A stretch of DNA of 51,504 nucleotides from a virus: IMG/VR virus record IMGVR_UViG_3300049811_000046, positions 1 through 51,504 of that record. One strand, 5' to 3'. This document shows, in pieces, positions 23,169 through 45,638 of the stretch. The stretch's first letter is position 1. Each line of letters begins with the position of its first letter. The notes under the pieces are model-generated. The model did not search any database and had not been told where the DNA came from. It was given only the letters and a program-made list of their open reading frames with translations. Both the position numbers and the translations under genes were made by a program.

Positions 23169-23197
23169 ATTGTATCAAATCGGATCATAAAACGCAA
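23169..23197 (-). promoter_or_regulatory. Late-type promoter for tail chaperone/tape measure operon
   Basis: On the minus strand TTGCGT, 17 bases, TACAAT. The -35 box overlaps the T-tract of the terminator that ends the major tail protein message. Transcription should start near 23162, about 20 bases before the chaperone ATG, leaving room for the AGGAGG site. Confidence 0.68.
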
Positions 23198-23220
23198 AAG
23201 CCAGCCGCGAAGGGCTGGCT
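23192..23220 (-). terminator. Rho-independent terminator after major tail protein gene
   Basis: The minus strand has a perfect 8-base-pair stem AGCCAGCC/GGCTGGCT (23213-23220 with 23199-23206), a six-base loop and then TTTTGCGTTTTAT. It lies 20 bases beyond the major tail protein stop codon. Confidence 0.88.
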
Positions 23221-23239
23221 CAGCGCTGATCTGGAGGGA

Positions 23240-23860
23240 TCAGAACGAACGGTCTACAATTTTACCGTAAGCGTTCGAAGTTGATGCTAGAGGAAGTAGA
23301 CGGAAGTTAACCGCGAACTTTGTTTCCTCGTTACGACGTAGCGAGTGAGTTGAAGACTCGACATTCATAACGCGGGCCGTGTAGTAAATACGCTCCACGC
23401 TCTTTGCTGGGTCTACAACTGCTCGTGGCGCTCCACCAACAGCGATCAACGAACGCTCAGGTGGGTACTCACCAAGAACTCCACCCTGAATTTCAAGAGT
23501 GGCGTTGTCAGCATCGGTGCGTGTTAGACCTGTATTCTGGTTGAATGCCAAGAATAGGTTCTCTAGTGTTGCCTCGCTCATAGTTGTACGAAGGGAAACC
23601 TTCATAGACTGCTTGAACAGAAGAACAGCGTCGAGTGCCTGGTCTACGACAACTTCACCGTACTGAGGCTCGTACATAACCTCAAGACCATCAGTTGTAT
23701 ATCCTACGTCTCGCCAATCGGCATCGCCCGCAAGTGTAGTCTTTGCAGATACACCTGCTGACCATGTAGGAAGAGCGGCTGCTGCCGTACCATCCTTGGT
23801 TGTGTCTACAGAAAGGAAAATCTGAGCGGCACCAACGATGACGTTTCTAGATGTTGCCAT
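23240..23860 (-). CDS. Major tail protein
   Basis: 206 residues, the building block of the tail tube. Evidence is position (right before the chaperone pair and tape measure), length, and typical features: N-terminal RNVIVGAAQIFLSVDTTKDG, then DWRDVGYTTDGLEVMYEPQ, and an EETKFAVNFRLLPL strand near the C-terminus. It has its own promoter (23924-23952) and terminator (23192-23220), as expected for a protein needed in very high copy. Its leader shares an exact 14-base element with that of the major capsid gene. Confidence 0.9.
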   Translation of the reverse strand: MATSRNVIVGAAQIFLSVDTTKDGTAAAALPTWSAGVSAKTTLAGDADWRDVGYTTDGLEVMYEPQYGEVVVDQALDAVLLFKQSMKVSLRTTMSEATLENLFLAFNQNTGLTRTDADNATLEIQGGVLGEYPPERSLIAVGGAPRAVVDPAKSVERIYYTARVMNVESSTHSLRRNEETKFAVNFRLLPLASTSNAYGKIVDRSF

Positions 23861-23866
23861 GTGATA

Positions 23867-23880
23867 TTTTCACCTACCTT
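23867..23880 (-). promoter_or_regulatory. Conserved translation element before major tail protein
   Basis: The minus strand reads AAGGTAGGTGAAAA, six bases before the ATG. The same 14 bases at the same spacing precede the major capsid gene (28099-28112). It contains a Shine-Dalgarno-like AGGTAGGTGA. Confidence 0.75.
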
Positions 23881-23923
23881 AAGAGTTTTCGTGTGCTGGC
23901 TAGGCGCTTTCGTCGTTGCCCAC

Positions 23924-23952
23924 AGCATATATCCGAAAACATTAAAATGCAA
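23924..23952 (-). promoter_or_regulatory. Late-type promoter for major tail protein gene
   Basis: Minus strand TTGCAT, 17 bases, TATGCT. The -35 lies inside a 17-base stretch, ATAATTTGCATTTTAAT (23941-23957), that recurs exactly at 29357-29373 before the capsid protease gene, in both cases covering the stop codon of the previous gene. The leader is about 57 bases. Confidence 0.65.
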
Positions 23953-23953
23953 A

Positions 23954-24475
23954 TTATATGTATAGTCCGTCAGAATCTTCTTTTCTGATGTAGTTATAGC
24001 AGATTTGGATCATTGCTGATAGCCGCCCCGCTTCACTCTTGGATGGTTCTGACAGGTCAACCCATTCTACGCTCACAGTCTGGAACCAATACTTACCAGA
24101 AATTCCTGAAGTTCGATTCACCTGTTTAGCGGACTCGTCCATTCTTCGGCAAGATTCCTTAATGACATTGACGATCTGATTGATCTTGTCAAGGTCCGGG
24201 CCGTAAATAGCGTATGTCAACTCATCACGCTCTACCCACCAGGCGTCTGATGAACTGGTGCTGTTCTGTGTTGTCATCACATCGAATACGAAATATGGGT
24301 TATCATCAAAGGTGTTAGCGATGAGTGGCTCTTCCTGGGCCGGGGTGAACGGTAGGATCACCCCGCCTGTCAGTCCGCTTATATAATCAGAAGAGGATAG
24401 CACTCCGCTGGCAATCAACTGATTCCAGATATACCTGTTCATATCTGTGGATGCTGCGTATGAGTAATCAGTCAT
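23954..24475 (-). CDS. Tail terminator / tail completion protein
   Basis: 173 residues. It lies immediately before the major tail protein gene in the head-to-tail connector block, the usual place of the tail terminator that caps the tube. Motifs that fit are MNRYIWNQLIASGVL at the N-terminus, PYFVFDVMTT and the helix LDKINQIVNVIKESCRRMDE. The last codons overlap the shared promoter element. The start ATG overlaps the previous gene by eight bases. Confidence 0.7.
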   Translation of the reverse strand: MTDYSYAASTDMNRYIWNQLIASGVLSSSDYISGLTGGVILPFTPAQEEPLIANTFDDNPYFVFDVMTTQNSTSSSDAWWVERDELTYAIYGPDLDKINQIVNVIKESCRRMDESAKQVNRTSGISGKYWFQTVSVEWVDLSEPSKSEAGRLSAMIQICYNYIRKEDSDGLYI

Positions 24476-25244
24476 CTTCTCTTGACCATTCCTTCTCTAC
24501 GTTGGTTCTGGCTAGGCCCTTGATAGCCGCCCGGCTCATGCTAGACCTAGCGGTAGCGCCTCTAATAGCGGACGGGATATTATCACCAGCACGCTTAGTA
24601 ATTCTAGCAGTTGTTTGTAACGCACCGCTATCTGAAAGTTGCTTCACCGCAAGGCCTGATGAGAAGTAGCCAGAGAATGTCCTGGCGAAAGAGTAGCGCA
24701 CATTCTGGCCTCCTGGGTTCCTCACTGTCACCGGGCCCTTGCTGAACTTGATATTTCCCTGTCCAGTAAACTCATACTTAACTGGAATGGCAAGCCAGTT
24801 GGCAGTCTTGCGGCGAATAGTGACCGGGATTCCTTCTTCCATCACATATGCCTTGCGGCGAAACACAGCGGACTTCGTGACCATCTTTCCGGATGGGCCG
24901 GGGGTGGCTAGGCTAGGGTGAATGTCAGCCACTCTGCGGCTATTGACGAAGTTGTATTTAATCCTCATGCTAGATGGGCCGTTCTGTATTTTAGACATTC
25001 TCCACAGCCTGTCATTTTTGTTACCTACCCCGCGCCATTCGTATACGTGGTGATACTTGGACTTCTCTAGACGAGCCTTGGCGTCGAGGTACTTTCCGAA
25101 ATTGCGCTCCAGATGCTTGAAGATCTTTTCGTTGTAACGGCGCATGGATTTCTCGTCCACGTTAGCATACCAGAAAACGTCAAGTTCGTAGTTGAGTGTT
25201 CCGGTTACTGTCTGTTCTAGGTTGGTGTCAATATCAATCCTCAT
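24468..25244 (-). CDS. Head-to-tail connector / minor tail protein
   Basis: 258 residues, strongly basic in the C-terminal half (RKTANWLAIPVKYEFTGQG, RSSMSRAAIKGLARTNVEKE). The position between the head-closure and tail-completion genes fits an HK97 gp10-like connector protein. At 258 residues it is longer than gp10 itself (about 150). GGAG is present seven bases before the ATG, and the gene overlaps its upstream neighbour by 11 bases. Confidence 0.65.
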   Translation of the reverse strand: MRIDIDTNLEQTVTGTLNYELDVFWYANVDEKSMRRYNEKIFKHLERNFGKYLDAKARLEKSKYHHVYEWRGVGNKNDRLWRMSKIQNGPSSMRIKYNFVNSRRVADIHPSLATPGPSGKMVTKSAVFRRKAYVMEEGIPVTIRRKTANWLAIPVKYEFTGQGNIKFSKGPVTVRNPGGQNVRYSFARTFSGYFSSGLAVKQLSDSGALQTTARITKRAGDNIPSAIRGATARSSMSRAAIKGLARTNVEKEWSREDD

Positions 25245-25656
25245 CTTGGATCTCCACCCGCTTCGCCATAACCTGATACTCTAGAATTCTGCCGAACGGA
25301 TCGAGGATCGGCTTACAACCCTGTACCTCGAAGACCATGCTTCTGTCCGGGCGCTCGCCCTGCGGCCAGATAATCTCTCCGTCTGCGCCACGGATATTGG
25401 TAATCCTCAGGCGCTTAGACAGGAACTTGCCAACCTTGATGTTGATTAGTTCGTACTCTGAGAATTCATCGGAAAACTTCTTTCCGGAAGCAACATCCGA
25501 GGCTGAGTCTGTAAGGATCGATTCAGCGTAGCATTTAATTGTTTCGCATACAGTGTACTCGCGCTTCAACTGGAAAGTCTTAGGGTCCTGGGTGACTGTG
25601 GCTTCGAGAATGTCTGCGGTCATTCTGTAGTTCGCAGATGTTAGGCAGCCGTACAT
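25234..25656 (-). CDS. Head closure / head-tail stopper protein
   Basis: 140 residues. Located after the adaptor gene and before the connector, the normal slot for the stopper that seals the filled capsid. The sequence is mainly beta (LKREYTVCETIKCYAES, EYELINIKVGKFLSKRLRI, MVFEVQGCKPILDPFGR). Three cysteines are spaced irregularly and do not look like a metal site. The ATG follows directly after the stop codon of the adaptor gene. Confidence 0.65.
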   Translation of the reverse strand: MYGCLTSANYRMTADILEATVTQDPKTFQLKREYTVCETIKCYAESILTDSASDVASGKKFSDEFSEYELINIKVGKFLSKRLRITNIRGADGEIIWPQGERPDRSMVFEVQGCKPILDPFGRILEYQVMAKRVEIQDED

Positions 25657-26583
25657 TTATACCACCCAGGCGTCAAAAACTTTGTATCTTTCAAGCAGCA
25701 TGTTGGCGGTAGCGTTTCCTGTTCCGGAATACGCCCTGTCATCAAAACTGAACTTCCAGTCCTTAACCTGTACGTGATTTATGTATCTATTCCTGTACAC
25801 CGAGTCCTGGCATAGAAGATCGAAGACAAGGTAGTACATAGCCTCTTTGACTCGCTCTGGCACGTATAGTTCTCCACACTCGCCGTATACGTCATAGCGA
25901 TATCCATAGCGGAAGTTGCCGTACGTGTAAACGAGCGATGGGCGCTCTTCCTCTGTGTAGTCGATGCCCGGCTCAGAGATCCTTACACCGAACCCTGAAT
26001 CTGAAACGCTGAATACCGTGCCCCACTCGTTTACGTCATCATCCACATCATAGATGAGTTTGTCATTCTCCCATATTTTCTTAATAGAGATCAATTTATC
26101 TGGAAGGGCAAGAACGTCTACCTGCTGGCCGACGCCGGTCACTGTCTTGTAAATGCGACCAAACCTTGTATTTGTGTAGGTTTCTATGTTTGCCCTCGCC
26201 ACCTTTTCAGCGGCAACGATTCTGTCGAGCGGCTGGTATCCTGGGTCGCTCTCTGATGTAAACTGATAACCTAGCCTGCTACATATCTCAGAAGGGGTTA
26301 GGTAAGGAGTCACGATATCGTGATACTGTGTGATTTCTACCGGGTCACCGCCGAAATCGAACGACCACACTACCTTTACGACTGACTGGCTGAGGGTTTC
26401 CTCAATTGGGATTTCTGCTAGCCAAGTCTCGCTTGAAACCGGCTGCGCCGGTGTTTTCTCGCTTACATCAAGGACGAGTTCTGTACCGTCCGCCCGGACC
26501 AACGTCGCAGTTGGAGTCGCAGTAGTGGACTGGCCGACACTAATTTCTACACTTGTTAGTGTATGGATATATATTTCGCTCAT
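25657..26583 (-). CDS. Head-tail adaptor with N-terminal Ig-like domain
   Basis: 308 residues in two parts. Residues 1-92 look like an immunoglobulin-like beta sandwich (SVEISVGQSTTATPTATLVR ... VVKVVWSFDFGG). Residues 93-308 have the helical head-tail connector pattern (YLTPSEICSRLGYQ, LDRIVAAEKVARANIETYTN, RVKEAMYYLVFDLLCQDSVY), like HK97 gp6 or SPP1 gp15. Such adaptors are usually 100-200 residues and lack the Ig-like part, so this is a fusion or an accreted decoration domain. AAGGTGG precedes the ATG. Confidence 0.72.
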   Translation of the reverse strand: MSEIYIHTLTSVEISVGQSTTATPTATLVRADGTELVLDVSEKTPAQPVSSETWLAEIPIEETLSQSVVKVVWSFDFGGDPVEITQYHDIVTPYLTPSEICSRLGYQFTSESDPGYQPLDRIVAAEKVARANIETYTNTRFGRIYKTVTGVGQQVDVLALPDKLISIKKIWENDKLIYDVDDDVNEWGTVFSVSDSGFGVRISEPGIDYTEEERPSLVYTYGNFRYGYRYDVYGECGELYVPERVKEAMYYLVFDLLCQDSVYRNRYINHVQVKDWKFSFDDRAYSGTGNATANMLLERYKVFDAWVV

Positions 26584-26599
26584 CGGCCAGCCACCTTAA

Positions 26600-27019
26600 T
26601 CATGCGTAGTAGTCTCTCAGTTCCTTCGGAGTAGCCAGCCTAAAGCCGGTCTCTTCAAGAATAAGGTCTGCATCATCGGCTGCAACGATCTGGTATGGGT
26701 GCTCGTATGTGAACGTGTAAACAGCACCGCTGTCGCCATATGCGTCCCAGCGTCGGTTATTGCGCGTCATCTTGATGACGTATGTCTCGCCACTCAAATT
26801 AGGCTCCTTAGACTGAACTGTACGCTGTGGGGCTGCGACCGGCTCTGGATCTGACTCCGGCTCTGGGAAAACGTGCTCCTTTACAAGAGCCAACGTAATT
26901 CCGTTAGCGTCCAACTCTTCCAAAATTTCTGCTTTCTTAGTAAGGCTTCCAAGATCTACGCCCATCTCATCAGCGATGATCTTAAGGTCGGCCACCTTGT
27001 AATTCTCTAGTTCAGACAT
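26600..27019 (-). CDS. Head protein with Rho-N/HeH-like N-terminal domain
   Basis: 139 residues. Residues 5-42 (NYKVADLKIIADEMGVDLGS ... KAEILEELDANG) match the small helix-extended-helix fold found at the N-terminus of Rho and in several phage head proteins. A Pro/Glu-rich linker (EPESDPEPVAAP) leads to a beta-rich C-terminal part. It is the first gene after the capsid terminator and has its own good promoter (TTGCTT-N17-TATAAT) and AGAGGA site. Confidence 0.72.
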   Translation of the reverse strand: MSELENYKVADLKIIADEMGVDLGSLTKKAEILEELDANGITLALVKEHVFPEPESDPEPVAAPQRTVQSKEPNLSGETYVIKMTRNNRRWDAYGDSGAVYTFTYEHPYQIVAADDADLILEETGFRLATPKELRDYYA

Positions 27020-27045
27020 GTGATTCCTCTCGTCTAGTCCTGACG

Positions 27046-27074
27046 ATTATAGCAAACGCCAGAATAAAAAGCAA
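27046..27074 (-). promoter_or_regulatory. Late-type promoter for head-tail connector operon
   Basis: Minus strand TTGCTT, 17 bases, TATAAT, the best match of the late promoter family. The -35 begins at the last base of the terminator hairpin that ends the major capsid message. Transcription should start near 27039, about 20 bases before the ATG at 27019. Confidence 0.75.
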
Positions 27075-27098
27075 GGGGGCCGGTAATCCCGGCCCCCT
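27064..27098 (-). terminator. Rho-independent terminator after major capsid gene
   Basis: On the minus strand a perfect 10-base-pair stem AGGGGGCCGG/CCGGCCCCCT (27089-27098 with 27074-27083) with a five-base loop is followed by TGCTTTTTATT. It starts 20 bases after the capsid stop codon. Confidence 0.92.
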
Positions 27099-27117
27099 AC
27101 ACTTATGGTGCGTTAGA

Positions 27118-28092: not shown

Positions 28093-28098
28093 TTGTTG

Positions 28099-28112: not shown

Positions 28113-28130
28113 TTTATTTGATTACATCTT

Positions 28131-29330: not shown

Positions 29331-29339
29331 AGTGGTTTG

Positions 29340-29368
29340 ATACTAATTGCATTTCTATTAAAATGCAA
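29340..29368 (-). promoter_or_regulatory. Late-type promoter for protease-scaffold-capsid unit
   Basis: Minus strand TTGCAT, 17 bases, TAGTAT. The -10 ends ten bases before the first base of the protease ATG, so the transcript would have a leader of only a few bases. The spacer and -35 form a perfect inverted repeat TTGCATTT-N6-AAATGCAA (29347-29368), which could be an operator. Confidence 0.62.
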
Positions 29369-30944: not shown

Positions 30945-31353
30945 TTTGTCTCGCCTCGATTTCGCCCATCAGAGCAGGAACGTCGTAAGGGTCTGGAACA
31001 TACCCATCCATCATTCGCTCAACCTGATGCCAGAATTCGTTCTCACTAATCTTGCGGGAGCCTGGGTAGAATACAGCAATTCCGTCAGGATATCCGTGGT
31101 GTGCAGCGGCCTCTTTTAGTCTGCGGATACGCTCTGGATCGCCCTGCCTCGACGCAATTGAAAGGAAGTTAGCGTCGTCGTCGGTAAGGAAGTTTCCGTC
31201 AGGCAACTGCCAAACATATACTCCGATGTTTGTCTCCTGAACAATCTGGACTCTGGGCTTGGTGTTTTCCCAGGTCTTTTTAACCGGCTCATCCGGGTCT
31301 ACATCTGTGCTTAGCACCAATTCTGACTTTTCCTGCTCATTCATGTCACTCAT
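30928..31353 (-). CDS. Hypothetical protein upstream of portal
   Basis: 141 residues, not recognised. The first 35 are acidic and probably disordered (ELVLSTDVDPDEPVKK). The rest is mixed (NIGVYVWQLPDGNFLTDDDA, GYPDGIAVFYPGSRKI). It overlaps the portal gene by 17 bases. Under the promoter at 31352-31380 the ATG at 31353 would lie inside the -10 box. The second ATG at 31344 (MNEQEK) is seven bases after the -10 and is then the likelier, leaderless start. The longer form is given here as the conventional call. Confidence 0.7.
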   Translation of the reverse strand: MSDMNEQEKSELVLSTDVDPDEPVKKTWENTKPRVQIVQETNIGVYVWQLPDGNFLTDDDANFLSIASRQGDPERIRRLKEAAAHHGYPDGIAVFYPGSRKISENEFWHQVERMMDGYVPDPYDVPALMGEIEARQSGLGY

Positions 31354-31380
31354 AATACCATTTCTCTCTACTTAAAGCAA
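31352..31380 (-). promoter_or_regulatory. Late-type promoter for portal operon
   Basis: Minus strand TTGCTT, 17 bases, TATTAT. It is identical in both boxes and spacing to the promoter before the large fibre gene (36543-36571). The -10 overlaps the annotated ATG of the downstream gene. Confidence 0.65.
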
Positions 31381-31387: not shown

Positions 31388-33754
31388 TCATACCGGGATC
31401 ACATTTGTATGCCATGCAGGTGAATATAGGCTCGGAGCGGCTACTTGGCTAACGCTTAAAGCGTCTGAATCGTCTGGTCTGAATGTGTAGCGACCAAGAA
31501 ATGCTTGGTAGTGCTCAGTTATGTTGGCCGCGCCCAGCGGCTCATCATATAGTGCTAGATTCTGTAGGCCAACTCCGTTGACGAAGTTGGTTGAGTTGTA
31601 ACCGGCCCCAACATATACCTGCTGATCAGAAACAAGGCTGGTTAATTCGCAGTATACGTGTATCCACTGGTTGTACAGGTTAGTGATATTTTTACCGGAC
31701 ATATTAATATCGTTGACCCTAAGCGACGCCATATTGTGACTCAGAGCATTACCAGCCTTATTCACAGAAACATAACGCTCGGTCGATCCGTCATATATGC
31801 TGATAATACGACCACTGTTAACCGTATCGTAATCTATATACAGCAAGAACTCAAAGGCGCGGTACTCGTAATGAGTAGTAACCCCATCAATATTTACATC
31901 TTCTATCTCTCCAATAACGCTGCCACTGTCAAAGAATACTCCGTCGTACTTGTTCCTTGCGAACCTATTCGATGCCTCTGAATTGATCCAGAGGTGGCCG
32001 TTACCAGTGAAGTTAATCCTGGCCTCTGAGTTCTCCGCTTTCACGTATCTATCGATGAATGACCTGATCACCACTCCGCTTGTTGCAGGATATGATGTCT
32101 TGTCTGGGACGGCGCTAGCACTAATACCAGAATTTATCTCAACCTCTATGCTCTGATCTATATCAACGCCTGGGGTAGAATTGAATGGAATTGGTAGAAC
32201 AGGCTTGATGTATTTATCAATATAATCTGTGGAGTCGCTGGTTGTTATCTCTGGCCGCATTCCTTGCCCGCCGTCAGTTATGGCATAAGCACAGAGTATT
32301 TCTTCATCGCTAGGAAGTAGTATCTCTGTGTGGAGAGAGGTTCCGGTGAATCCAGCAATTTCGTAACCAGTGTTCATCGGCCAATATCCAGTCGCCCTTG
32401 TTGCGGCGAAGTAGTTTGCGTAATCGTTATCTATGTCGTCAAGGGATAGAACTGTGTCGTATGTGACTAGAGTAGAAATCAGCGGGATCGCCGCCCCACC
32501 GTATTCACCGTCAGTGCCCAGAACAATGAATGTAGAGTCATCGACAACAATATTCTGCTCCACCTCGGTCGCGGAAGAGACTGGGTTCAGGTCCAGCGGA
32601 GTCCCATCACTCTTCAGAGAGATGAAGCCGTTGTTATAGACTAGAATAAAGGCTCCTCCGGATGTTGATACTGTATCGTCAAATGTTATTGTGGTCGGTG
32701 TTTCTGTACCGTCGTCGGCCACATCCACTACATCTATCTTGAAGTCATTTGCTGACGTAACGTAAGCAGAGACTCTCTGGGTGCTCCCAATTAGAGAAAA
32801 TAGGTACTCATCTGATGCCCTGGTGTTATCGTCATCAGTCATAATACAGATTACGAACTGGCTTAATCCTAGCAGCGACTTTGCAGGTGCATACAGGTAC
32901 TCACCAGCGCCGATTTCTACTCCGGTTCCTGGGAAATTGGGTGCTGAATCATAAGCAAGGTCCGGGGCTGGCTTAGTGGCAAAGTATCCGTCAGGATCTA
33001 CAAAAAGGTTCTTGCTGGTGTCTGAATTGAATTCCTGGTCTAATTCTAGATCAAAGAAGCAGTTCCGCTCCGCCCTCATCTTGAATACCTGCCCCTCGTC
33101 GTTGGCACATGCGTCGGTATGACTGATTGATTGTGCGGATAGGAATTTTGCGGCTATCTCTTCTGGTTGCAGGGCGCGGTCGTAGACACATACATTAGAA
33201 GCAAATGTTGCGTCTAGAACTAAATCTGGATCCGTGTTTGAGAATGCAGCAGACGTAGGCGCTTCCTCGCTAAAGAACTGGAATCCATTAACATACACAG
33301 ACAAGGTGGATCCGGTCCATGTCATAGCAAAGTAGAATGCCTGGTCCATGTCTGGAACCTTGAAGTGGTGCGACATAATTCCAGGGAGGTATACGTATAG
33401 GCTCTCTGTGTCCGCCCCGACCACATTTGTTCCGATGGATAGGATATCCACAGTGCCGTGATCGTCGTTGTCGTTATTGGTGTGTAGTTCAAACCAGCCG
33501 TCAACGGTGAACGGCAGAGGCTCTTTTCCCTCTGTTGCGAAATTAAGACCAAGCGTGGATGTCGCACCGCTGCTTTTTGATGAGTGAAAACCTGGAACCA
33601 GCGGTTGATATAGTTTAGGGGCGGTGCCGGTGGCTACTGGAACGTCCGCCCCGGTCAGATCACCTGACCTACCCATAACATCAACATCGCCGTGTATTTC
33701 ATCCAGCGGCCAATAACTGTAAGGGTTAGTCGAGATTACGTATTCTCTATACAT
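31388..33754 (-). CDS. LamG-domain minor tail or decoration protein
   Basis: 788 residues with at least three concanavalin/LamG-like sandwiches. The first (about 10-200) opens with NPYSYWPLDE and has FTVDGWFELHTNND, FAMTWTGSTLSVYVNGFQFF and VCVYDRALQPEEIAAKF. The middle repeats the pattern (FVICIMTDDDN, FILVYNNGFISLKSDG), and the C-terminal part has EFLLYIDYDTVNSGRII and LALYDEPLGAANITEHYQAF. LamG modules bind carbohydrate, so surface binding is likely. The gene lies between the lysis/fibre block and the head genes. It has its own promoter eight bases before the ATG and no ribosome binding site. Confidence 0.78.
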   Translation of the reverse strand: MYREYVISTNPYSYWPLDEIHGDVDVMGRSGDLTGADVPVATGTAPKLYQPLVPGFHSSKSSGATSTLGLNFATEGKEPLPFTVDGWFELHTNNDNDDHGTVDILSIGTNVVGADTESLYVYLPGIMSHHFKVPDMDQAFYFAMTWTGSTLSVYVNGFQFFSEEAPTSAAFSNTDPDLVLDATFASNVCVYDRALQPEEIAAKFLSAQSISHTDACANDEGQVFKMRAERNCFFDLELDQEFNSDTSKNLFVDPDGYFATKPAPDLAYDSAPNFPGTGVEIGAGEYLYAPAKSLLGLSQFVICIMTDDDNTRASDEYLFSLIGSTQRVSAYVTSANDFKIDVVDVADDGTETPTTITFDDTVSTSGGAFILVYNNGFISLKSDGTPLDLNPVSSATEVEQNIVVDDSTFIVLGTDGEYGGAAIPLISTLVTYDTVLSLDDIDNDYANYFAATRATGYWPMNTGYEIAGFTGTSLHTEILLPSDEEILCAYAITDGGQGMRPEITTSDSTDYIDKYIKPVLPIPFNSTPGVDIDQSIEVEINSGISASAVPDKTSYPATSGVVIRSFIDRYVKAENSEARINFTGNGHLWINSEASNRFARNKYDGVFFDSGSVIGEIEDVNIDGVTTHYEYRAFEFLLYIDYDTVNSGRIISIYDGSTERYVSVNKAGNALSHNMASLRVNDINMSGKNITNLYNQWIHVYCELTSLVSDQQVYVGAGYNSTNFVNGVGLQNLALYDEPLGAANITEHYQAFLGRYTFRPDDSDALSVSQVAAPSLYSPAWHTNVIPV

Positions 33755-33762: not shown

Positions 33763-33790
33763 AGTATATCATTTTAGGCGGTAAACGCAA
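33763..33790 (-). promoter_or_regulatory. Late-type promoter for LamG protein, near-leaderless
   Basis: Minus strand TTGCGT, 16 bases, TATACT, ending eight bases before the ATG at 33754. Transcription should begin within about two bases of the start codon. The -35 box lies just after the hairpin at 33794-33813. Confidence 0.65.
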
Positions 33791-33813
33791 TCACCCCCGC
33801 CCGGAGGCGGGGG
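33791..33813 (-). terminator. Terminator-like hairpin before LamG gene
   Basis: The minus strand has a perfect 8-base-pair stem CCCCCGCC/GGCGGGGG (33806-33813 with 33794-33801) with a four-base loop, followed by TGATTGCGTTT. The T-tract is weak, but the position, upstream of a promoter and after a structured RNA, matches the two stronger terminators. Confidence 0.6.
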
Positions 33814-33905
33814 CTATGCGGTAACTTCCACCCTAAGGCACGGGACGCGAAATTGCTGCACTCCCCGTAACGACCAGGCACCCCAACTGGGACTACCAGA
33901 CGTTA
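33814..33905 (-). ncRNA. Candidate structured non-coding RNA
   Basis: The stretch between the second holin-like gene and the hairpin at 33794-33813 has no ORF and looks GC-richer than nearby gaps, with several possible stems on the minus strand: CCCAGTTGGG, and ACGGG (about 33862-33866) with CCCGT (about 33840-33845). It would sit in the 3' end of the fibre/holin message. It is not a tRNA (no T-arm or anticodon arm could be drawn) and I do not recognise a known riboswitch or ribozyme core. Confidence 0.35.
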
Positions 33906-34153: not shown

Positions 34154-34455
34154 TGTAGTAGGCCAGCCTGGTGCAGCGCAGCAGCGGTAATTTGACCAGT
34201 CCTTGCGGTTATCCACTGAATGTGCTCTTCACATTCCTTATCGTTGATTCCAGCATCTCGATAGTCGAGGGCGGCTGTTTGTACAGCGGAATATGTTTCA
34301 GCAAATGGCAGACCGTCAGGGGTGCCATAGTCGAGGAGGAGGGAGCGAGCGTCTGAGAGGGCAGCGCGGTGGGCAAGGAGCGTGTCGGCGGCGGCAGCGG
34401 CGGCGGATATCTTCGCGATAATCTCCGCGTCTGACGGGATGGGACCGAGGTCCAT
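34150..34455 (-). CDS. Small alanine-rich protein downstream of tail fibre
   Basis: 101 residues, strongly helical (IIAKISAAAAAADTLLAH, then YSAVQTAALDYRDAGINDKE). Small proteins directly after a fibre gene are often fibre assembly chaperones, but I see no known chaperone motif, so this is context only. The base composition is visibly richer in G+C than the surrounding genes and matches the 3' part of the fibre gene. The start forms a TGATG overlap with the fibre stop; a GTG one codon earlier would also work. Confidence 0.65.
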   Translation of the reverse strand: MDLGPIPSDAEIIAKISAAAAAADTLLAHRAALSDARSLLLDYGTPDGLPFAETYSAVQTAALDYRDAGINDKECEEHIQWITARTGQITAAALHQAGLLQ

Positions 34456-36515
34456 CACAGAGCCACCTCGATTCCGTTACTGAAGTTGATCGCCCCAGCC
34501 GTAAGGGTTCCCGCCGCGCTGATATGGGCCATGAGGCCGTAATCGCTGTAGAAGGAAGGCCTATCGAAGAAGGCGGGGAACAGCGAGTAGTCGATCAGGC
34601 TGTTGCCCCGCATCCAACCGATGAAGGTCGCTCCAGGAATTGCAACGACCGCGAAGACATCGGAGACCTGGGCAGTCCCACTCAGCGTTACCGAGGGATC
34701 GCCAAATCCGTTGATGATCTGGACAACCCCGGAGGCGCTCACGGTGACGCTGGGCCATGACCAGCCGTAGGACATGCCGATCCCGAAGACCAGCGACCCG
34801 CCAACTGGCATGGTGTCAATCGTGAAGTACCCAGAGGCGGACGTGAATCGGCGCGGACCTTCGATTGACGCCTGAGCACTAGCGGCGGAGCCAGCGAAGT
34901 TCACCTGTGTCCCAGACTGTGCGGCGAGGCCGGACTTACTCCATGCGGCGCTCGTGATACTCGGCGCACTAAGCAGGTTTGGGTAGTTGCTGGACCACCC
35001 CTGAGAGATGTAGTAGGCGGCCTCTCGGTTCGCGAAGCCGACCTTCGCCCAGGTTCCAGAGGTCTTCAGGTAGATAGCGCCGCGCGTGTTCTCTGCCGCA
35101 TCCCATGCGAAGTCACCATCCGAGCCGGTTCCGCTAGACGGTATTCCGCTAGTGTCGCGGAATGCAGACCCGCCACTACCAGCAGGTGCAGCAAACGAGC
35201 CATCTCCGCGTAGGAAGTTAGACGTATTCCCATCAGGCGTAACAAGACCCTTAACACCACTAGATGCAGTTGGCAATATTGCTGCTACTTGAGTGCCTGT
35301 TAAGTCAGTTGGGTCTCCTGTTCCTGCACCGCTCGCCCGGCCCTTGATGGTTGCCTGAGCCATATCGTTAAGAATAGTGTTTGTTACTGCGTTAGCAGAG
35401 TTTGGAACAGCGCCTACGTCTGTAGCGTCAAGAACTACCGCCCCGGTTTCGCTATTAACCGATGTTACTGGTGAGGCCGGGTATGTAAGAGCAGTCCATG
35501 ACGCTAACTGCGTAGGATCATTACCTGTAATAACCCAGTTTGTTCCTAGGTCTGTACGAGTACACCAGTCTCCTTTTTGACCTACAAGGGCTAGCATGGC
35601 TGCTTGATTGGCTGCCGCCCCCAGGTATTCAGTAATAGCGATTGCTGGAATCTGTGCGGCTGGAACTTGTCCACCGCTGTCTAGGCTCGCGTAACCATCT
35701 GCTACACCCTTCTCTGATTCCTTCTGGTAGCCTGCGTGTGGGTCTGCCGCGCCTTCGTGCGCCGATACGGCTGACGCTGCCGCGCCAGCGGTTTCTTTTC
35801 CGGATAGCAGCGTATCAACTTCACCATCCGTGTAGTAAATGTCGTCATGGTTGTGTGCTGTTGGTGTGCGAGCATCGCTTAGGCGGGCGTCACCCTCTAG
35901 GATGATGTCTGATGTGTCAGCGATTCCGTGTACGTTTGTTGTATCCGCTGAGTGAGTTGCTACCGCCCCGGCGTCCTCTTTGCCAGTTAGGAGTGTGTCT
36001 ACTTCACTCTCTGTATAGTAAGCATCGTCGTGGTTGTGGACTGCTGGTGCGGCACCTACATCAGAATAATCAAGGCTCACCGCTCCCGTCTGACCATTAA
36101 CCGAAACAACTGCGTCTGCTGGATATGCTAGCGCTGTCCATCCACCAATTACTGATGGGTCTGCCCCGGTAATAACATAAACCTTATTTTCGTCTGAGCG
36201 AATTACCCAGTCGCCTTTTTGACCTACTGCCCCGAGCATGGCTGATTCGTCAGCGGCTACTCCGAGGAATTCGCTGATCGCTATGTCTGGAATCTGTGCA
36301 GATGGGACTTTCCCTGATCCGTCTAGGCTGGCGTATCCGCCCGCCGCTCCCTTTTCAGACTCTTTCTGGTATTGGGTGTGTGGGTCTGCTCCGAGGTGCG
36401 TATCCGCAAACTCTACGGCAGCATCGATACCAGCCTCCATACGGTTAAGTTCGGCGGCTGTAATCGGGGTATCTACGGAAGGTAGATCTTCCCAGTTAGT
36501 AGGCGTATACGGCAT
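34455..36515 (-). CDS. Modular tail fibre protein
   Basis: 686 residues. It starts with the frequent fibre N-terminus PTNWEDLPSVDTPITAAELN. Two copies of an approximately 130-residue module follow (first: YASLDGSGKVPSAQIPDIAI, GQKGDWVIRSD, TGAVSLDYSDVGAAP; second: YASLDSGGQVPAAQIPAIAI, GQKGDWCTRTD, TGAVVLDATDVGAVP), separated by HNHDDAYYTESEVDTLL repeats of the fibre-shaft type. About residue 450 on is a glycine-rich linker and a unique C-terminal tip of about 200 residues that probably binds the receptor. The tip is encoded by DNA of higher G+C. Confidence 0.85.
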   Translation of the reverse strand: MPYTPTNWEDLPSVDTPITAAELNRMEAGIDAAVEFADTHLGADPHTQYQKESEKGAAGGYASLDGSGKVPSAQIPDIAISEFLGVAADESAMLGAVGQKGDWVIRSDENKVYVITGADPSVIGGWTALAYPADAVVSVNGQTGAVSLDYSDVGAAPAVHNHDDAYYTESEVDTLLTGKEDAGAVATHSADTTNVHGIADTSDIILEGDARLSDARTPTAHNHDDIYYTDGEVDTLLSGKETAGAAASAVSAHEGAADPHAGYQKESEKGVADGYASLDSGGQVPAAQIPAIAITEYLGAAANQAAMLALVGQKGDWCTRTDLGTNWVITGNDPTQLASWTALTYPASPVTSVNSETGAVVLDATDVGAVPNSANAVTNTILNDMAQATIKGRASGAGTGDPTDLTGTQVAAILPTASSGVKGLVTPDGNTSNFLRGDGSFAAPAGSGGSAFRDTSGIPSSGTGSDGDFAWDAAENTRGAIYLKTSGTWAKVGFANREAAYYISQGWSSNYPNLLSAPSITSAAWSKSGLAAQSGTQVNFAGSAASAQASIEGPRRFTSASGYFTIDTMPVGGSLVFGIGMSYGWSWPSVTVSASGVVQIINGFGDPSVTLSGTAQVSDVFAVVAIPGATFIGWMRGNSLIDYSLFPAFFDRPSFYSDYGLMAHISAAGTLTAGAINFSNGIEVAL

Positions 36516-36542: not shown

Positions 36543-36571
36543 ATAATAACATGATTATGGTCCTGAAGCAA
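36543..36571 (-). promoter_or_regulatory. Late-type promoter for tail fibre gene
   Basis: Minus strand TTGCTT, 17 bases, TATTAT, the -35 lying in the end of the upstream gene. The leader is about 21 bases and contains GGAG before the ATG at 36515. Confidence 0.62.
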
Positions 36572-39396: not shown

Positions 39397-40824
39397 TCAT
39401 GGGTTAGCGTAGTTTCTCTCTAGCGGAGCAACAAGTGCTACGCTGTTAGACTTTGATCTTTGAATTGTTCCGGTCGCCTTCACGTACTGTCCGGTTGTCA
39501 ATCCAATTGCGACTACTGTAATGGCTGCATCTGTTCCGGCTGTTCTACCGCCCTGAACATTTCCATCATAGTCGAATGTCTTTGTGATGCTGGATCCGCT
39601 GATCACACCTGACATGTCTGCGGCCGAGGCATCGTCTACAATTATAGCACCTGTCTCACCGAAGTCGTTGTTTGCGCCCGGTAGTGTGCTGAAGTAGACC
39701 CAATACTTGCTTGATGGGTCATTGACTAGGTTGTCGTTGAAGGTTAGTGTCAGAGACGCGGTGTAAGCGTACTGCCTTTGAGCACCAGTGTTATCAACGA
39801 AGAATACGGAGTTAACGTCGGCACTGGCAAAGTTGTCAATAAATACTCCGGTTCCGCCGCCCTGGGTGTTGTCTGATGCTAGTGTGTATAGCGTATCTCC
39901 GACGTAACGTAGAAGCGGGGCAGCGGTCTTTCCGGTTACTGAACCGGCATCAGCGTCAATGTCTGCGTTCTGACGCAGGGCGTACTGGACAAACTCGTAA
40001 ACTTTCTGTAGTGTCTGTCCATTACCATCAATGACTACTCCGAAGTTGTAGTTACCACCCTGTAGGGCCTTGGACTGTGGTGTTGCGTAATAAGTAATTG
40101 TCATACCAGAGTACGGAGAAACGTCTGCTGGATAGCCAGTTCCAGATGCCTTAATTCCTGTGTCTGCTGTAATGATCTTAAGGTCTGCACCAGTAGAGAT
40201 AGGGAAACGATAAGCAATCGAATCCATAGTGGTTACACCGATGTCTGTTAGAGAGGACTGACCAAATACCTGGCCCTGCTCACGGACATATAGTGTTAGG
40301 CTGCTTCTACGATCAAAGTCGGACCCTTCAGCATAGTTACCATCTCCGTCGTCATCCTTGAGGATTTGGATTGCCTGATTTACCTGGCCGGTTAGTTGGA
40401 AGTTTACCGGGCCAGTTCCCTGGTTGTAGTAAAGTTGGTCGTTTGACTCAATAGAGCCCAGACCGATGATACCGGCCCATTTCTGGGTAACGTTTCCTGA
40501 AGTATTACGAACCGTCCATCCACCTGTACGGATCAGGTAGCGAGCGGAATCGTTGAAAAAGTCCCATCCATCAACAAATTCAAAAGACTCGTCGGTAATA
40601 GGAACCATTGGGAACGGGAAGGCAGGAAGGTTTTTGGTTTGAGGGTCGTTCTTCCACTCTTCCTTCAAGAAGGAATACAGAGCCTTCAGAGTTACACCAT
40701 CAGTGGAAAGATTTCCAGTGGTGTTAAGTTTAATTGTCTTTGTAGATGTGTTGATATAGACTTCGGTGCTACCGTTGTCTACCGAGCCATCATTAAGTTG
40801 ATCCGGGTCCGTAATCAGGGCCAA
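39397..40824 (-). CDS. Large structural protein of unknown role
   Basis: 475 residues. An N-terminal strand set (NGSTEVYINTSTKTIKLNTT), helix LKALYSFLKEEWKND, FPFPMVPITDESFEFVDGWD, WTVRNTSGNVTQKWAGI, and later FNDNLVNDPSSKYWVYF are visible. The start is TTG at 40824, because an in-frame stop comes just before it, with GGGAAG/GAAG upstream. It is first behind the promoter at 40860-40887. Its length and large beta content fit a virion surface protein. Confidence 0.75.
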   Translation of the reverse strand: MALITDPDQLNDGSVDNGSTEVYINTSTKTIKLNTTGNLSTDGVTLKALYSFLKEEWKNDPQTKNLPAFPFPMVPITDESFEFVDGWDFFNDSARYLIRTGGWTVRNTSGNVTQKWAGIIGLGSIESNDQLYYNQGTGPVNFQLTGQVNQAIQILKDDDGDGNYAEGSDFDRRSSLTLYVREQGQVFGQSSLTDIGVTTMDSIAYRFPISTGADLKIITADTGIKASGTGYPADVSPYSGMTITYYATPQSKALQGGNYNFGVVIDGNGQTLQKVYEFVQYALRQNADIDADAGSVTGKTAAPLLRYVGDTLYTLASDNTQGGGTGVFIDNFASADVNSVFFVDNTGAQRQYAYTASLTLTFNDNLVNDPSSKYWVYFSTLPGANNDFGETGAIIVDDASAADMSGVISGSSITKTFDYDGNVQGGRTAGTDAAITVVAIGLTTGQYVKATGTIQRSKSNSVALVAPLERNYANP

Positions 40825-40859
40825 CTACTTCACTTCCCATTCCATAAGATTCTCATATG

Positions 40860-40887
40860 ATTATACCGCTTGATTCTTAAAAAGCAT
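40860..40887 (-). promoter_or_regulatory. Late-type promoter with perfect TATAAT
   Basis: Minus strand ATGCTT, 16 bases, TATAAT. The -35 differs from the family TTGCNT at its first base. The leader before the TTG start at 40824 is about 29 bases. Confidence 0.5.
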
Positions 40888-40889
40888 AA

Positions 40890-41632: not shown

Positions 41633-42403
41633 TTATGGAACCACCCTAAACCCATACTTGTTTCCAAGTTGGATCAGACCATCATAGTCTGGTACTTTGT
41701 TCGGGTTTTTGCGACCGATTCTCTTCTCCCAGGCCAGCCACGCTGCCTGAGCACCGCTTCCGAATGCTCCAGTTTTCAGAGAAATAGGAATCTTTGGGAA
41801 TTCCTTGTTAAGAGCGGTCTTGACTATGATTCCCTGAGTATTTGACCTATTCTTAGCGATGTTGTTCGCGGACACAACCGGGCGCTTACCCCATAGTGAT
41901 CCGTCAGGCTTGATGCCTAGTTTGTTAATCTGGCGTAGAACCTGATACAACTTTGTACCGGGCGCTAGAGCCCAGTGCATAGGATCCCAATTCTGTGGCT
42001 TGCTGTAGTCTCCACCTAGTTGCTCCGGCCCGCCCCAAATAACTAGAGCATACTTGGATTTAAGGTTCTTGGCCTTTAGGTAGCGGCCCTGCTTTGACCA
42101 CCAACCATATGCCGATGGACCCTGCTTGCCCTCCTGTGTGGCGTTAAGGTCTTCTGCTGTTCCGGAGGCGTGGTCAGACCATAGAGACGCTGATCTAGCC
42201 TCTCTATAAGCGTATCCCCAGTCATCGAATGTTCCAACATCGATAGGCGCAATAGTCTTGTGGTAGTCAGCGGCAAGAGCGATCAGCAATGGGCCGATAT
42301 CGTCACGTAGTGTGATATACCTCTTGGTGCCGGGCACCTTAAATCTCTTAATCTTTGGATTTTCTGGTGGCAGCACCACCCATCCGTTAATACTAGTTGG
42401 CAT
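41633..42403 (-). CDS. Endolysin, M15-type D,D/L,D-peptidase with C-terminal binding domain
   Basis: 256 residues. Residues 1-150 are a zinc peptidase of the M15 (VanY/endolysin) type: S76-D-HASGTAED gives His78 and Asp85, and DPMHW gives Asp140 and His143, the metal and catalytic residues. It cuts peptide cross-bridges of peptidoglycan. Residues 185-256 (TQGIIVKTALNKEF ... SGAQAAWLAWEKRIG ... DGLIQLGNKYGFRV) look like a peptidoglycan-binding domain. No signal peptide is seen, so it needs a holin. It starts in a TAATG overlap after a 29-residue ORF and is read from the promoter at 42511-42538. Confidence 0.88.
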   Translation of the reverse strand: MPTSINGWVVLPPENPKIKRFKVPGTKRYITLRDDIGPLLIALAADYHKTIAPIDVGTFDDWGYAYREARSASLWSDHASGTAEDLNATQEGKQGPSAYGWWSKQGRYLKAKNLKSKYALVIWGGPEQLGGDYSKPQNWDPMHWALAPGTKLYQVLRQINKLGIKPDGSLWGKRPVVSANNIAKNRSNTQGIIVKTALNKEFPKIPISLKTGAFGSGAQAAWLAWEKRIGRKNPNKVPDYDGLIQLGNKYGFRVVP

Positions 42404-42492
42404 TACTCATCCTCCTGAATCTGTAGCGCTATAAATTCGTCAGAAACCTCCATATCGGTAAACTCACCTGTGATAAAGTTCCAAATCTGCAT
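42403..42492 (-). CDS. 29-residue protein upstream of endolysin
   Basis: A very short ORF with the strongest signals of the block: a late promoter, AGGAGG about six bases before the ATG, and a TAATG overlap with the endolysin start. The product is acidic (17 residues MQIWNFITGEFTDMEVS, then DEFIALQIQEDE) with no membrane helix. It may be a leader peptide for coupled translation or a small protein in its own right. Confidence 0.6.
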   Translation of the reverse strand: MQIWNFITGEFTDMEVSDEFIALQIQEDE

Positions 42493-42510
42493 AGCGACCT
42501 CCTGACATCA

Positions 42511-42538
42511 ATTATACATTTTTATGATGATGATGCAA
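42511..42538 (-). promoter_or_regulatory. Late-type promoter for endolysin operon
   Basis: Minus strand TTGCAT, 16 bases, TATAAT. It lies at the very end of the ribonucleotide reductase gene. The transcript would start near 42504, about 12 bases before the ATG of the 29-residue ORF. Confidence 0.7.
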
Positions 42539-44459
42539 CATCAACTAGTTCGCACTGACCGCTAACGCAGGCTAGTTCCTGAGCCCCGCTAGTCGTGTCT
42601 TCTGTTTCGTATACAGACAGCAGTGACCAGTCGATGTGCTCTGGCATCTTCGCTACGAGCGCTTCATACCTTTCCTTGTCGATGGCCTGGTATGGGGCCT
42701 GTGGATAAACGTGGTCGTCAAACGGTAGGAACGAGATTCCTGAGACAATATCCCAGTTCTTGTAAACCCAGTCAGCGACTTCGATCCATTCGTCATCACG
42801 AACATTTACCGTAATGCTTGGGTTGTGCTCTGTCCAGTGCTGCTTGTACACCTTCCAGATCTCTAGGTGCTGAATAGCGGTCAGGTGATCTCTTGTGATC
42901 GCGCCAGGAGGGGCGGCAATTGGAAACGAGAACACGGTAGTAGTATTAGGCTTGTTGATGTCTGGCTCGTGAGGAATGCCCATATCCTTCATGAATTGTG
43001 TCATTGGGTCCTTGTTATCCGCCCGAACCGTACGAATGTAGTATTCGCTCCACCACGGGTGCATTCCGCTAGAAACACCGGCAAGTTGGCTGACTGTTCC
43101 TGATGGCTTTACTGTGGTAATAGCAACAGATTGGTTAATTCCAAATTTACCGGCCCAACGCTGGTTGCTGGCTACCGCATACTCACGAAGATCGTCAAGC
43201 CATGCGGCAGTTGTGTCTAGACCATTAGCGCCAGAAAGGGTTGGGTGGCCGAATTGTCCGGTCAGGCTTACACCTAATAGGCGCTCTTCCTCGCAGTTAC
43301 GCTTCCAGACATTACGAAGGTACTTGAAATTGGTGAATGTTGACTGTAACGTTCCGAGAAATACCGTGGCCTCCACCTTTTTCTTGAGTCTATTAAGGTC
43401 ATCGCCGTAACGGACGACGATCTCTGTCAAGTTACAGAACTCATATGGACGAAGGTTGATTTCACCACAAGGGTTGGTTCCAGCGATCTGGCTGGCGTCG
43501 CGGCGACCGTGGCGCTTTGCCTCTTTGCGTACTGTTTCAAGATTGAAGATTCCGCGCTCGCCTGACTTAGACGCTACAAGTGACTGCCACTCTTTAAGGA
43601 AACGCTCAGCGCTAGGCTTGTCGTTGTATACGGCTGAATTATTTGCCAGAACACGCTGTGGCTCTACCGCCCAGAAGTTACCCATCTTGGCCGTCTGCAT
43701 ATCGTAGTCGTCAAGGTCGGATAGGGAAATGAGAGCGGAGCGGCGGACTCCACCGACAACTACTACGTCTCCGATCTTACACATTAGGTCATGGGCTTCT
43801 ATTGGGCGTAGTTGTCTACCTGCCGCCCCCTTGAATGTCTTGATAGCGAAATCAAATAGATCAACTAGTGGCTGCGGGCCGGATGCACGACCACCGAATG
43901 TCTTTAGTCGAGCCCCGGCCGGGCGTACGTTTGTGATGTCGATAGATGGAATCTGCCCCTGCCAAAGCAGCGCTAGTAGTTCCTTGAGGGCCTTGGCCCA
44001 TCCGTACTTGCTATCCTCTACAATAATTACCGTACTGGATTTGTGGAATGACTCAGCAACCTGAGGCAACTTGTCAACATATTTACCCTCTACAGAAAAC
44101 CCAACTCCTGTTCCACACATAAGAATGTACATGGCCTCGTCAAAGGAGCGGGGCGAGTCAACTGGAATGAACGAGCAGTTGTATCCTGCTACGTGATCAC
44201 GACTAAGTGCTGGTCCTGCGGTCATAGTTGCACGCATGGAGCCTAGTGCTTCTCTATCGAAGATAAGTTCTCTTAGTTCTGCCCGCATGTCGTCTTCGAC
44301 AACGACTCCATATTTATCTTTGGCGTACGCGAGCATATAGTCCAGGTAGCGATCTACCGTTTCACCCCACGTCTCTCTGCGACCTTCGTCTTCGATCCAA
44401 CGTGCGTATCTGCTTAGGGCAATAAAGTTCTCATAGTAATTGTCGATGCTTTGCTTCAT
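42522..44459 (-). CDS. nrdJ: Class II (adenosylcobalamin) ribonucleoside-triphosphate reductase
   Basis: 645 residues; reduces NTPs to dNTPs for phage DNA synthesis, using B12 to make the radical, so it works with or without oxygen. Key residues are all present with the spacing of the Lactobacillus leichmannii enzyme: Cys95 (NCSF), NPCGEI with N329, C331 and E333, Cys342 eleven residues later, and the C-terminal redox pair C631/C636. Also GGVRRSALISL and PSGTVSQLAGVSSG. It is single-subunit and does not need NrdB. GGAGGAG lies before the ATG. With ThyX (47073-47771) it gives a nucleotide-supply set across the divergent junction. Confidence 0.94.
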   Translation of the reverse strand: MKQSIDNYYENFIALSRYARWIEDEGRRETWGETVDRYLDYMLAYAKDKYGVVVEDDMRAELRELIFDREALGSMRATMTAGPALSRDHVAGYNCSFIPVDSPRSFDEAMYILMCGTGVGFSVEGKYVDKLPQVAESFHKSSTVIIVEDSKYGWAKALKELLALLWQGQIPSIDITNVRPAGARLKTFGGRASGPQPLVDLFDFAIKTFKGAAGRQLRPIEAHDLMCKIGDVVVVGGVRRSALISLSDLDDYDMQTAKMGNFWAVEPQRVLANNSAVYNDKPSAERFLKEWQSLVASKSGERGIFNLETVRKEAKRHGRRDASQIAGTNPCGEINLRPYEFCNLTEIVVRYGDDLNRLKKKVEATVFLGTLQSTFTNFKYLRNVWKRNCEEERLLGVSLTGQFGHPTLSGANGLDTTAAWLDDLREYAVASNQRWAGKFGINQSVAITTVKPSGTVSQLAGVSSGMHPWWSEYYIRTVRADNKDPMTQFMKDMGIPHEPDINKPNTTTVFSFPIAAPPGAITRDHLTAIQHLEIWKVYKQHWTEHNPSITVNVRDDEWIEVADWVYKNWDIVSGISFLPFDDHVYPQAPYQAIDKERYEALVAKMPEHIDWSLLSVYETEDTTSGAQELACVSGQCELVDVASSS

Positions 44460-44547
44460 TAAAAGGGTCTCCTCCGGCGGGGCACACCGGCCCCTATCTG
44501 ATGTGTAGAGTTCTACTCTACCACGTTACAGTTATGGGGCGACGACT
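44460..44547 (-). promoter_or_regulatory. Leader region of reductase gene with hairpins
   Basis: An 88-base gap. The minus strand has a 7-base-pair hairpin GTAGAGT-AGA-ACTCTAC and, nearer the start codon, GGGGC-N6-GCCCC, whose 3' side runs into the GGAGGAG binding site. No convincing -10/-35 pair is present. The gap is short for a cobalamin riboswitch and I see no B12 box, so I call it only a possible translation-control leader. Confidence 0.35.
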
Positions 44548-45531
44548 TCAGGAGAACTTTTCTACTATATGTGCGAAGGCTTTTTCTGTTCGATTCAACC
44601 AGTTGTATTCGGCCCTGAAAGTCTCCGCCTGGTCGTAGAATTCGTCAGACAAGCGTTCGAATTCGTTGTACGCTTTTAGCATCTGCTCACGCAAAGACCC
44701 CTCATCCGGCATTAGTACATTTCCTGGGTGCATCTTCTGCCACGGAGAATAGACAAGTTTTGCGTCTACCTTCAGATCTTTTATATAGTCCCTGTAAGGG
44801 GCCCACTCTGTTGTGGATATTGTCGGCATTCCTGTGGCGATGGCCTGGGCCGGGATGAATCCGAACCCCTCTCCCCATGAAGGGTAAACAAGCACGTCGC
44901 AGGTCTTGTATAGGCTAACCATTTCTTCGATTGTGTACTCGCGGCTAATCAGTTTTACGTTGGGCAACTTATCTGGGGTGCATATGATTGAACCGTACTT
45001 GTCGTATACGCGCGTAGTGTTGATGTTATGGGCCTTCATCACTAGTTCTACGTCTTTTGAGTTTCCAAATAAGTCTACAAAGGCGTCTAGAACCATTTGA
45101 CCGGACTTGCGCGGGGCTGGCTCTCCGATGTGGAGGAAGCGTAGTTTGTCTCTGCGGTTGCGCTTTTTGGGTGTCCAGATTTCGTCCACGCCGTGTTCGT
45201 AGACATAGAGAGGCTTAGTTACCCCGGCCTTTTTGTAAACGTCGGCAACCCAGTCACTAGTAGTCCAAATTTCGTCGCACTGCTCCATGTGCTCTAGCCA
45301 CATTTCTGGAAGTTCTGTAGATTCCCACGGAGTGTAGCCGATCTTGTACTGATGGTCATAAAACCCGTAATATTCAGGCTGGACAAAACTTATCTGGACC
45401 GGGGCGGAGTCATCGTCAAAGGGCACCTCGTGTCCGAGCGCCACCAGTGACTTACAGATGTTATACCCCGCGACTCCGTAACCGACAGTAGTGTTCAGGT
45501 TCCCTAGGTCCGTATGGTACGATATACGCAA
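44548..45531 (-). CDS. Group 1 (GT4-type) glycosyltransferase
   Basis: 327 residues with the two-domain GT-B layout. The N-terminus (HTDLGNLNTTVGYGVAGYNI) forms the acceptor side, and LRFLHIGEPAPRKSGQMVLD followed by CDVLVYPSWGEGFGFIPAQA forms the nucleotide-sugar side. In the GT4 E-x7-E motif the first Glu (221) is kept but the second position is Gln229. It transfers a sugar from an activated donor; the target may be phage DNA or virion proteins. The start is TTG with AAAGGG seven bases upstream. It has its own late-type promoter at 45610-45638. Confidence 0.86.
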   Translation of the reverse strand: MRISYHTDLGNLNTTVGYGVAGYNICKSLVALGHEVPFDDDSAPVQISFVQPEYYGFYDHQYKIGYTPWESTELPEMWLEHMEQCDEIWTTSDWVADVYKKAGVTKPLYVYEHGVDEIWTPKKRNRRDKLRFLHIGEPAPRKSGQMVLDAFVDLFGNSKDVELVMKAHNINTTRVYDKYGSIICTPDKLPNVKLISREYTIEEMVSLYKTCDVLVYPSWGEGFGFIPAQAIATGMPTISTTEWAPYRDYIKDLKVDAKLVYSPWQKMHPGNVLMPDEGSLREQMLKAYNEFERLSDEFYDQAETFRAEYNWLNRTEKAFAHIVEKFS

Positions 45532-45609
45532 TATATTGCCCTTTGTTGGATATTGTAGATATTTCTTATACTCTACATATCTCTCATATCTTTCTCTAGT
45601 ATAAAGAAC

Positions 45610-45638
45610 ATCGTACAGCAGGTTCGTCTCTGACGCAA
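45610..45638 (-). promoter_or_regulatory. Late-type promoter for glycosyltransferase gene
   Basis: Minus strand TTGCGT, 17 bases, TACGAT. It lies in the divergent gap of 198 bases. The leader would be about 70 bases long and A+T-rich. Confidence 0.6.

Follow-up and report, generated by a model that had tools for sequence, protein, structure and literature searches.

At the middle promoters of bacteriophage T4, the -35 element is replaced by a box, centred at -30, to which MotA binds, while AsiA holds sigma region 4 away (PMC2988021; also PMC6755090). The MotA box reads wwwTGCTTtA and lies 12±1 bp from the -10 element, with a TGn motif in about half of the T4 sites (PMC2988021). Vegetative promoters of Streptomyces follow another layout, NTGACC and TANNNT, and leaderless messages, which this genus tolerates, arise from 21% of the primary start sites of S. 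coelicolor (PMC4895711).

The promoters considered here lie in IMGVR_UViG_3300049811_000046, an unplaced fragment from IMG/VR with 51,504 bases and 49% GC, whose whole length is hereafter called the window. Genes for portal, capsid, protease, tape measure, B12-type ribonucleotide reductase, DnaB and ThyX point to a siphophage; its portal shares 50-52% identity with the portals of three Streptomyces phages, Muntaha, Coruscant and LukeCage (Stanwilliamsviridae), and the late arm has the gene order of Stanwilliamsviridae phages. By its sequence, the window phage is a relative of this family, represented by a partial genome. Its placement came from protein searches, a Megablast of the window against phages giving no match and a capsid search of genome contigs no relative. 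Uncultured relatives, closer and more distant, were also retrieved for comparison; the portals of loci L008 and L012, for example, are 71% and 47% identical to that of the window. In the phage collection, 127 Streptomyces phages carry the portal. The open-access literature searched yielded no account of these promoters, which is not proof of absence, and no transcriptome for the phage group that includes LukeCage and Muntaha.

The element common to these promoters, drawn from 169 distinct sites of the clade in a table that was iteratively refined and leans towards its own model, is TTTGCnTTWTAA at about -36 to -25 (numbering that takes the -10 element as -12 to -7), followed by 12-13 unconstrained bases and by TGnTAtAAT, with T at 60% and G at 73% in the TGn motif and a -10 element of TAtAAT. 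As at T4 middle promoters, a phage-specific box with TTTGC-TT-A and a centre near -30 replaces the -35 element, a normal sigma-70 -10 element is retained, and TGn is frequent. The MotA box and TTTGCnTTWTAA overlap, but here position 5 is free, WTAA extends the box, and the whole is longer and 1-3 bp further upstream, with 14-15 bp from the matched register to the -10 element instead of the T4 distance. T4 boxes drive middle genes whereas these stand before virion genes; T4 encodes MotA and AsiA, of which no homologue was found in six genomes (PF09158 and PF09010, no match at E<=1); and, unlike T4, these phages have actinobacterial hosts and many apparently leaderless messages. Because the box is offset and longer, and because MotA and AsiA homologues were not found, the promoters of the clade would at most work like T4 middle promoters, and not as a member of that system. 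Host promoters of Streptomyces share the TANNNT -10 element and the frequency of leaderless mRNAs, but have a TTGAC -35 element in place of TTTGCnTTWTAA; since their consensus is NTGACC, TTGC is not that of the host.

A box ahead of virion and lysin genes

An initial annotation had read nine exact copies of TTGCNT-N16/17-TANNNT, and a weaker tenth, on the minus strand of the window. All nine are present on that strand (5' ends at 45638, 42538, 36571, 33790, 31380, 29368, 27074, 23952 and 23197), as is the weak copy at 40887, ATGCTT-N16-TATAAT. The strict pattern has 10 minus-strand matches and 1 plus-strand match in the window, against means of 1.2 (maximum 5) and 2.3 (maximum 6), respectively, in 200 dinucleotide shuffles, and among -35 words of this form it is TTGCNT that most often precedes TANNNT on the minus strand. 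Nine of the ten strict minus-strand matches lie in, or straddle, the gap ahead of a gene, so the refuting outcome named in the initial annotation, coding DNA matched as often as gene starts, did not occur. Circularity was avoided by training a matrix solely on the two relatives L008 and L012: eight of the ten listed sites are within its nine best matches in the window, and no plus-strand match of the window exceeds the listing threshold. A strict match at 16400, inside the tape-measure gene, and a match at 6217, which aligns to conserved coding sequence in genome G001, were discarded as chance matches in coding DNA.

The lowest-numbered site, at 23169-23197 (TTTGCGTTTTAT-TGATACAAT; all sites described here are on the minus strand), serves the gene in the tail-assembly-chaperone position, whose ATG (23142) lies 26 nt past the -10 element with an AGGAGG present; the box sits within the T-tract of a terminator hairpin at 23198-23221, and orthologous sites exist in L004, L005, L008 and L012. 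The major tail protein gene (23240-23860) is served from 23924-23952 (TTTGCATTTTAA-N-TATGCT), with orthologues at LukeCage 32087 and Muntaha 22719. The next site, 27046-27074 (CTTGCTTTTTAT-TGCTATAAT), precedes the gene that follows the capsid gene (ATG 27019) and adjoins a terminator hairpin at 27074-27098. The capsid maturation protease (ATG 29330) is served from 29340-29368 (TTTGCATTTTAA-N-TAGTAT), a site of leaderless type with the ATG 9 nt past the -10 element, which has orthologues in L004, L008, L012, LukeCage and Muntaha and none in the Rhodococcus phage Weasels2. Two further sites are of leaderless type: 31352-31380 (TTTGCTTTAAGT-TGGTATTAT), before the gene ahead of the portal gene (ATG 31344, 7 nt past the -10 element), and 33763-33790 (ATTGCGTTTACC-TGATATACT), before gene 31388-33754 (ATG 33754, 8 nt), which also adjoins a terminator hairpin at 33793-33814 and is orthologous in L004, L005 and L008 though below the threshold of the relatives' matrix.

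On the rest of the arm, a tail-fibre-like gene (34455-36515) is served from 36543-36571 (ATTGCTTCAGGA-TGTTATTAT), and gene 39397-40824 from 40860-40887 (TATGCTTTTTAA-GGTATAAT), the copy initially called weak, which is among the four best matrix matches. The endolysin operon (41633-42403) is served from 42511-42538 (GTTGCATCATCA-TGTATAAT), and G001 retains TTGCTTCTTC...TATAAT at the equivalent place. The weakest member, 45610-45638 (GTTGCGTCAGAG-TGTACGAT), precedes a glycosyltransferase gene (44548-45531) and is conserved in one close relative only; with site 33763 it scores lowest by the relatives' matrix, both being below the listing threshold. The inclusion of glycosyltransferase genes in the class thus holds for the window phage and that relative, but not for LukeCage and Muntaha, where the corresponding promoter is of another type. 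A contrasting promoter, TTGACA-N17-TACCCT (6518-6546, minus strand), stands before the post-tail operon leading to holin and helicase.

Three other features of the window were recorded along the way. The 5' leader of the major tail protein gene (23861-23923, minus strand) contains a conserved hairpin-like element, also seen in L034, L035, L049, L051, L073, L086, L087, L029 and L098, with an invariant loop (YTAGCCA) and an apparently covarying stem (GTGC/GCAC, GTGT/ACAC, GAGC/GCTT); the window copy has a mismatch, and the window had no match in Rfam. A small open frame (MQIWNFITGEFTDMEVSDEFIALQIQEDE; 42404-42490, minus strand) separates promoter 42511 from the endolysin gene, and the close relative L220 retains it. 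At the non-coding right end (50465-50565), TATAGnGCGGTTTTTGCGAA occurs three times, spaced in an iteron-like manner.

The sites that were annotated as carrying a -35 hexamer are real, but their conservation continues through 12 bp: the five bases after the hexamer are conserved in the aligned sites although they were outside the search pattern. In the 169-site table, information drops sharply at both edges of the box, and positions -12 to -2 upstream of it carry no more than 0.05 bit. Spacers of 16 and 17 dominate the family table. Position 4 is C in 73% of the relaxed family set, and in all strict sites by definition; the statement that the -35 element is always TTGC plus N and T is too strict, since in relatives the box also reads TTGGCNTTT, TTGCCATTAA and TTTGCATGATAA. 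Between orthologous promoters of the window and of L008 or L012, the box is 83% or 75% identical, the spacer 50% or 25%, and the flanks about 40%. Non-circular support for the element comes from this footprint, the shuffles, the relatives' matrix, the held-out LukeCage genome and the distance from the -10 element to the ATG.

Start codons, terminators and two promoter classes

This last measure played no part in site selection. Among 139 sites, the distance from the -10 element to the first frame-opening ATG peaks at 6, 7 and 9 nt, and falls between 5 and 11 nt at 54 of them, compared with 122 of 2780 random positions; being independent of selection, this peak supports both the assignment of the -10 element and a promoter function. 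Since the ATG lies where transcription should start, the messages look leaderless, and about 40% of the sites would seem to start such mRNAs. A GC-rich hairpin ends at the box in 47 of the 139 sites, against 4% of random positions, so that the T-tract of the terminator forms part of the promoter box. The other 92 sites are hairpin-free and have the same consensus; terminators therefore do not explain the motif.

The box is also distributed unevenly along genomes. In the held-out LukeCage genome, all 7 matches at a score of at least 15 are at gene starts on the plus strand of the late arm, a placement with a chance of one in seven per match. In the first 50 kb of Muntaha, the late-gene strand carries every one of the 13 best matches, and almost all of these stand ahead of late genes. 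Members of the class lie at LukeCage 21249, 24208, 26562, 29402, 32087 and 43554 and at Muntaha 8878, 10062, 12588, 14947 and 22719. LukeCage, Muntaha, G006 and G007 together have 24 box matches on the plus strand of the late arm and none on its minus strand, with 14 and 2, respectively, elsewhere. Across 77 relative loci (959 kb), chosen solely by capsid similarity and not all mutually independent, 110 matches at a score of at least 17 are on the late-gene strand versus 11 on the other. These loci span 35-53% GC, and the box is thus independent of base composition.

TTGAC-type promoters of the same genomes, found in early and tRNA regions, likewise have a spacing of about 17, but lack the box and are distributed over the remaining part of the genome: on the plus strand of six genomes, 251 are outside the late arm versus 24 within it, with 16 on the late minus strand as background. 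For box versus TTGAC-type promoters in the late arm versus the rest, on the plus strand, the odds ratio is 15 (p = 5e-11). These genome-wide distributions strongly support the proposal, made from the window, that virion and lysin genes have a promoter class separate from the TTGAC type used elsewhere. A few good boxes do lie outside the late arm, for example at Muntaha 81615 and G007 107159. In three genomes, a box-type promoter of this kind precedes a small gene whose close downstream neighbour is the phage WhiB gene (L128 31615-31700, which is Muntaha 81615; LukeCage 112198; G006 65732). Weasels2 (L130) has a related late arm with homologous virion genes but no box, its late promoters being TTGACA-like or made of an extended -10 element alone (TATGnTAnAAT). 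Compared with its box-using relatives, this phage would appear to reflect a turnover of promoter class among related phages.

Candidate readers and competing explanations

Which phage protein might read such a box? Putative DNA-binding or zinc proteins common to LukeCage, Muntaha, G001, G006 and G007 are a MerR-type winged-HTH protein, WhiB, a 49-aa HTH protein, two zinc-ribbon proteins and Lsr2. In LukeCage, the winged-HTH protein is gene 73 and WhiB gene 238. The winged-HTH protein (phrog_9440; 3021-3539 in the window, minus strand) is a candidate regulator with a GRPR motif like an AT-hook, and its gene keeps its position between the holin and helicase genes. The motif, GRPR or GKPR, is present in 40 of 40 aligned relatives and lost in G007 and Weasels2; the AlphaFold model (pLDDT 81), with Foldseek E values no better than 0.03, confirms a MerR-type HTH only. 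The protein is carried by 127 Streptomyces phages of the collection, the same number as the portal. As a reader of the box it is unsupported, given its variable recognition helix, its homologue in the box-less Weasels2 and the missing GRPR in the box-using G007. Weasels2 retains WhiB and the 49-aa HTH protein as well, and neither discriminates between phages with and without the box. Weasels2 lacks the zinc-ribbon proteins phrog_10853, a clade-specific double zinc-ribbon protein of 93 aa (LukeCage gene 91), and phrog_11425, whose carriers in the collection are exactly 127 Streptomyces phages and no others; they may be taken as a lead and not as an identification, a single loss in Weasels2 being weak evidence.

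In WhiB7-type activation, WhiB is bound to sigma-A region 4, and the DNA upstream of the -35 element is AT-rich. The phages resemble this system in that WhiB is encoded by every box-using genome examined that is complete or nearly so; they differ from it in that nothing is conserved upstream of the box, and in that WhiB is also present in Weasels2, which has no box.

Host sigma-A/HrdB might read these sites unaided, as ordinary promoters with an extended -10 element and a degenerate -35 element, with the box as a weak -35 adapted to late genes. They do retain the TTG of TTGACA, and the frequent TGn and the normal sigma-70 type of the -10 element suit this account; however, position 4 is mostly C rather than A, information runs 5 bp beyond the hexamer, phages ranging from 35 to 53% GC share the box, and TTGAC is used freely elsewhere in the same genomes, which together make it unlikely. 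The initial annotation had suggested a phage or alternative sigma factor, or else a late activator that changes the choice of -35 element. The former, understood as a divergent phage sigma factor or a small protein like sigma region 4, could draw on the 49-aa HTH protein (LukeCage gp94), which is in all five genomes and has weak matches to sigma-70 region 4. Searches of these genomes nevertheless gave no sigma-70 region 2 (PF04542) at E<=0.1 and no region 4 (PF04545) over the cut-off, and the 49-aa protein, whose recognition helix is variable and which Weasels2 shares, scores better to the generic HTH_23; we consider a phage sigma factor quite improbable. Least credible of all, and very nearly dismissed, is the proposal that TTTGCnTTTT is no more than the T-tract of an intrinsic terminator that happens to have a -10 element nearby: the excess of hairpins adjoining the box, three of them in the window, would agree with it, but the hairpin-free sites have an identical consensus, TTTGC is rare at terminators outside the late arm (2 of 26 and 2 of 33), and both the -10 spacing and the leaderless distance are fixed.

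The late activator was the better half of the suggestion, and is preferred because the 12-bp box exceeds the usual contact of sigma region 4 and recurs at 35-53% GC, although the activator itself is putative and, judging by gene content only, the genes would be late ones. The promoter class itself is well supported by the comparisons among these sequences. The sites are probably the virion and lysin gene promoters of a Stanwilliamsviridae-like phage, with a putative phage factor at the box and host polymerase at the -10 element, a division of labour that we infer. RNA polymerase with the main host sigma factor would still read the -10 element and TGn, while region 4 would not read the upstream element; a putative phage DNA-binding factor, expressed earlier from TTGAC-type promoters, would bind the box and recruit polymerase, taking the place of sigma region 4 and working as MotA does at the middle promoters of T4. 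Every late operon would have a promoter of its own, and about one third of the boxes are built into the T-tracts of terminator hairpins. Against such a factor, host RNA polymerase might weakly read TTGCNT unaided, with TGn helping.

WhiB proteins bind sigma-A region 4, and a phage WhiB would therefore be a natural holder of that region. On a bolder account, which is conceivable but which we would not expect to hold, these phages invented the appropriation of sigma independently: WhiB would hold sigma region 4, paired with a box reader (the winged-HTH protein or phrog_10853), and the polymerase would be switched from TTGAC to TTTGCnTTWTAA, with promoter and terminator fused and many leaderless late messages.

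A signature for late promoters in Streptomyces phages

Little seems to be known about gene timing in large Streptomyces phages. The box offers a late-promoter signature for a group with about 127 cultured phages and many uncultured relatives, having been read in two cultured phages and 77 further loci. It divides genomes into two promoter classes, predicts to within 1-2 nt where the messages of leaderless virion genes start, and leaves a handful of conserved genes among which to look for the switch protein. Should a box-binding co-factor truly be at work, a T4-like solution would have been reached separately in viruses of actinobacteria, and would provide a ready orthogonal promoter system for Streptomyces.
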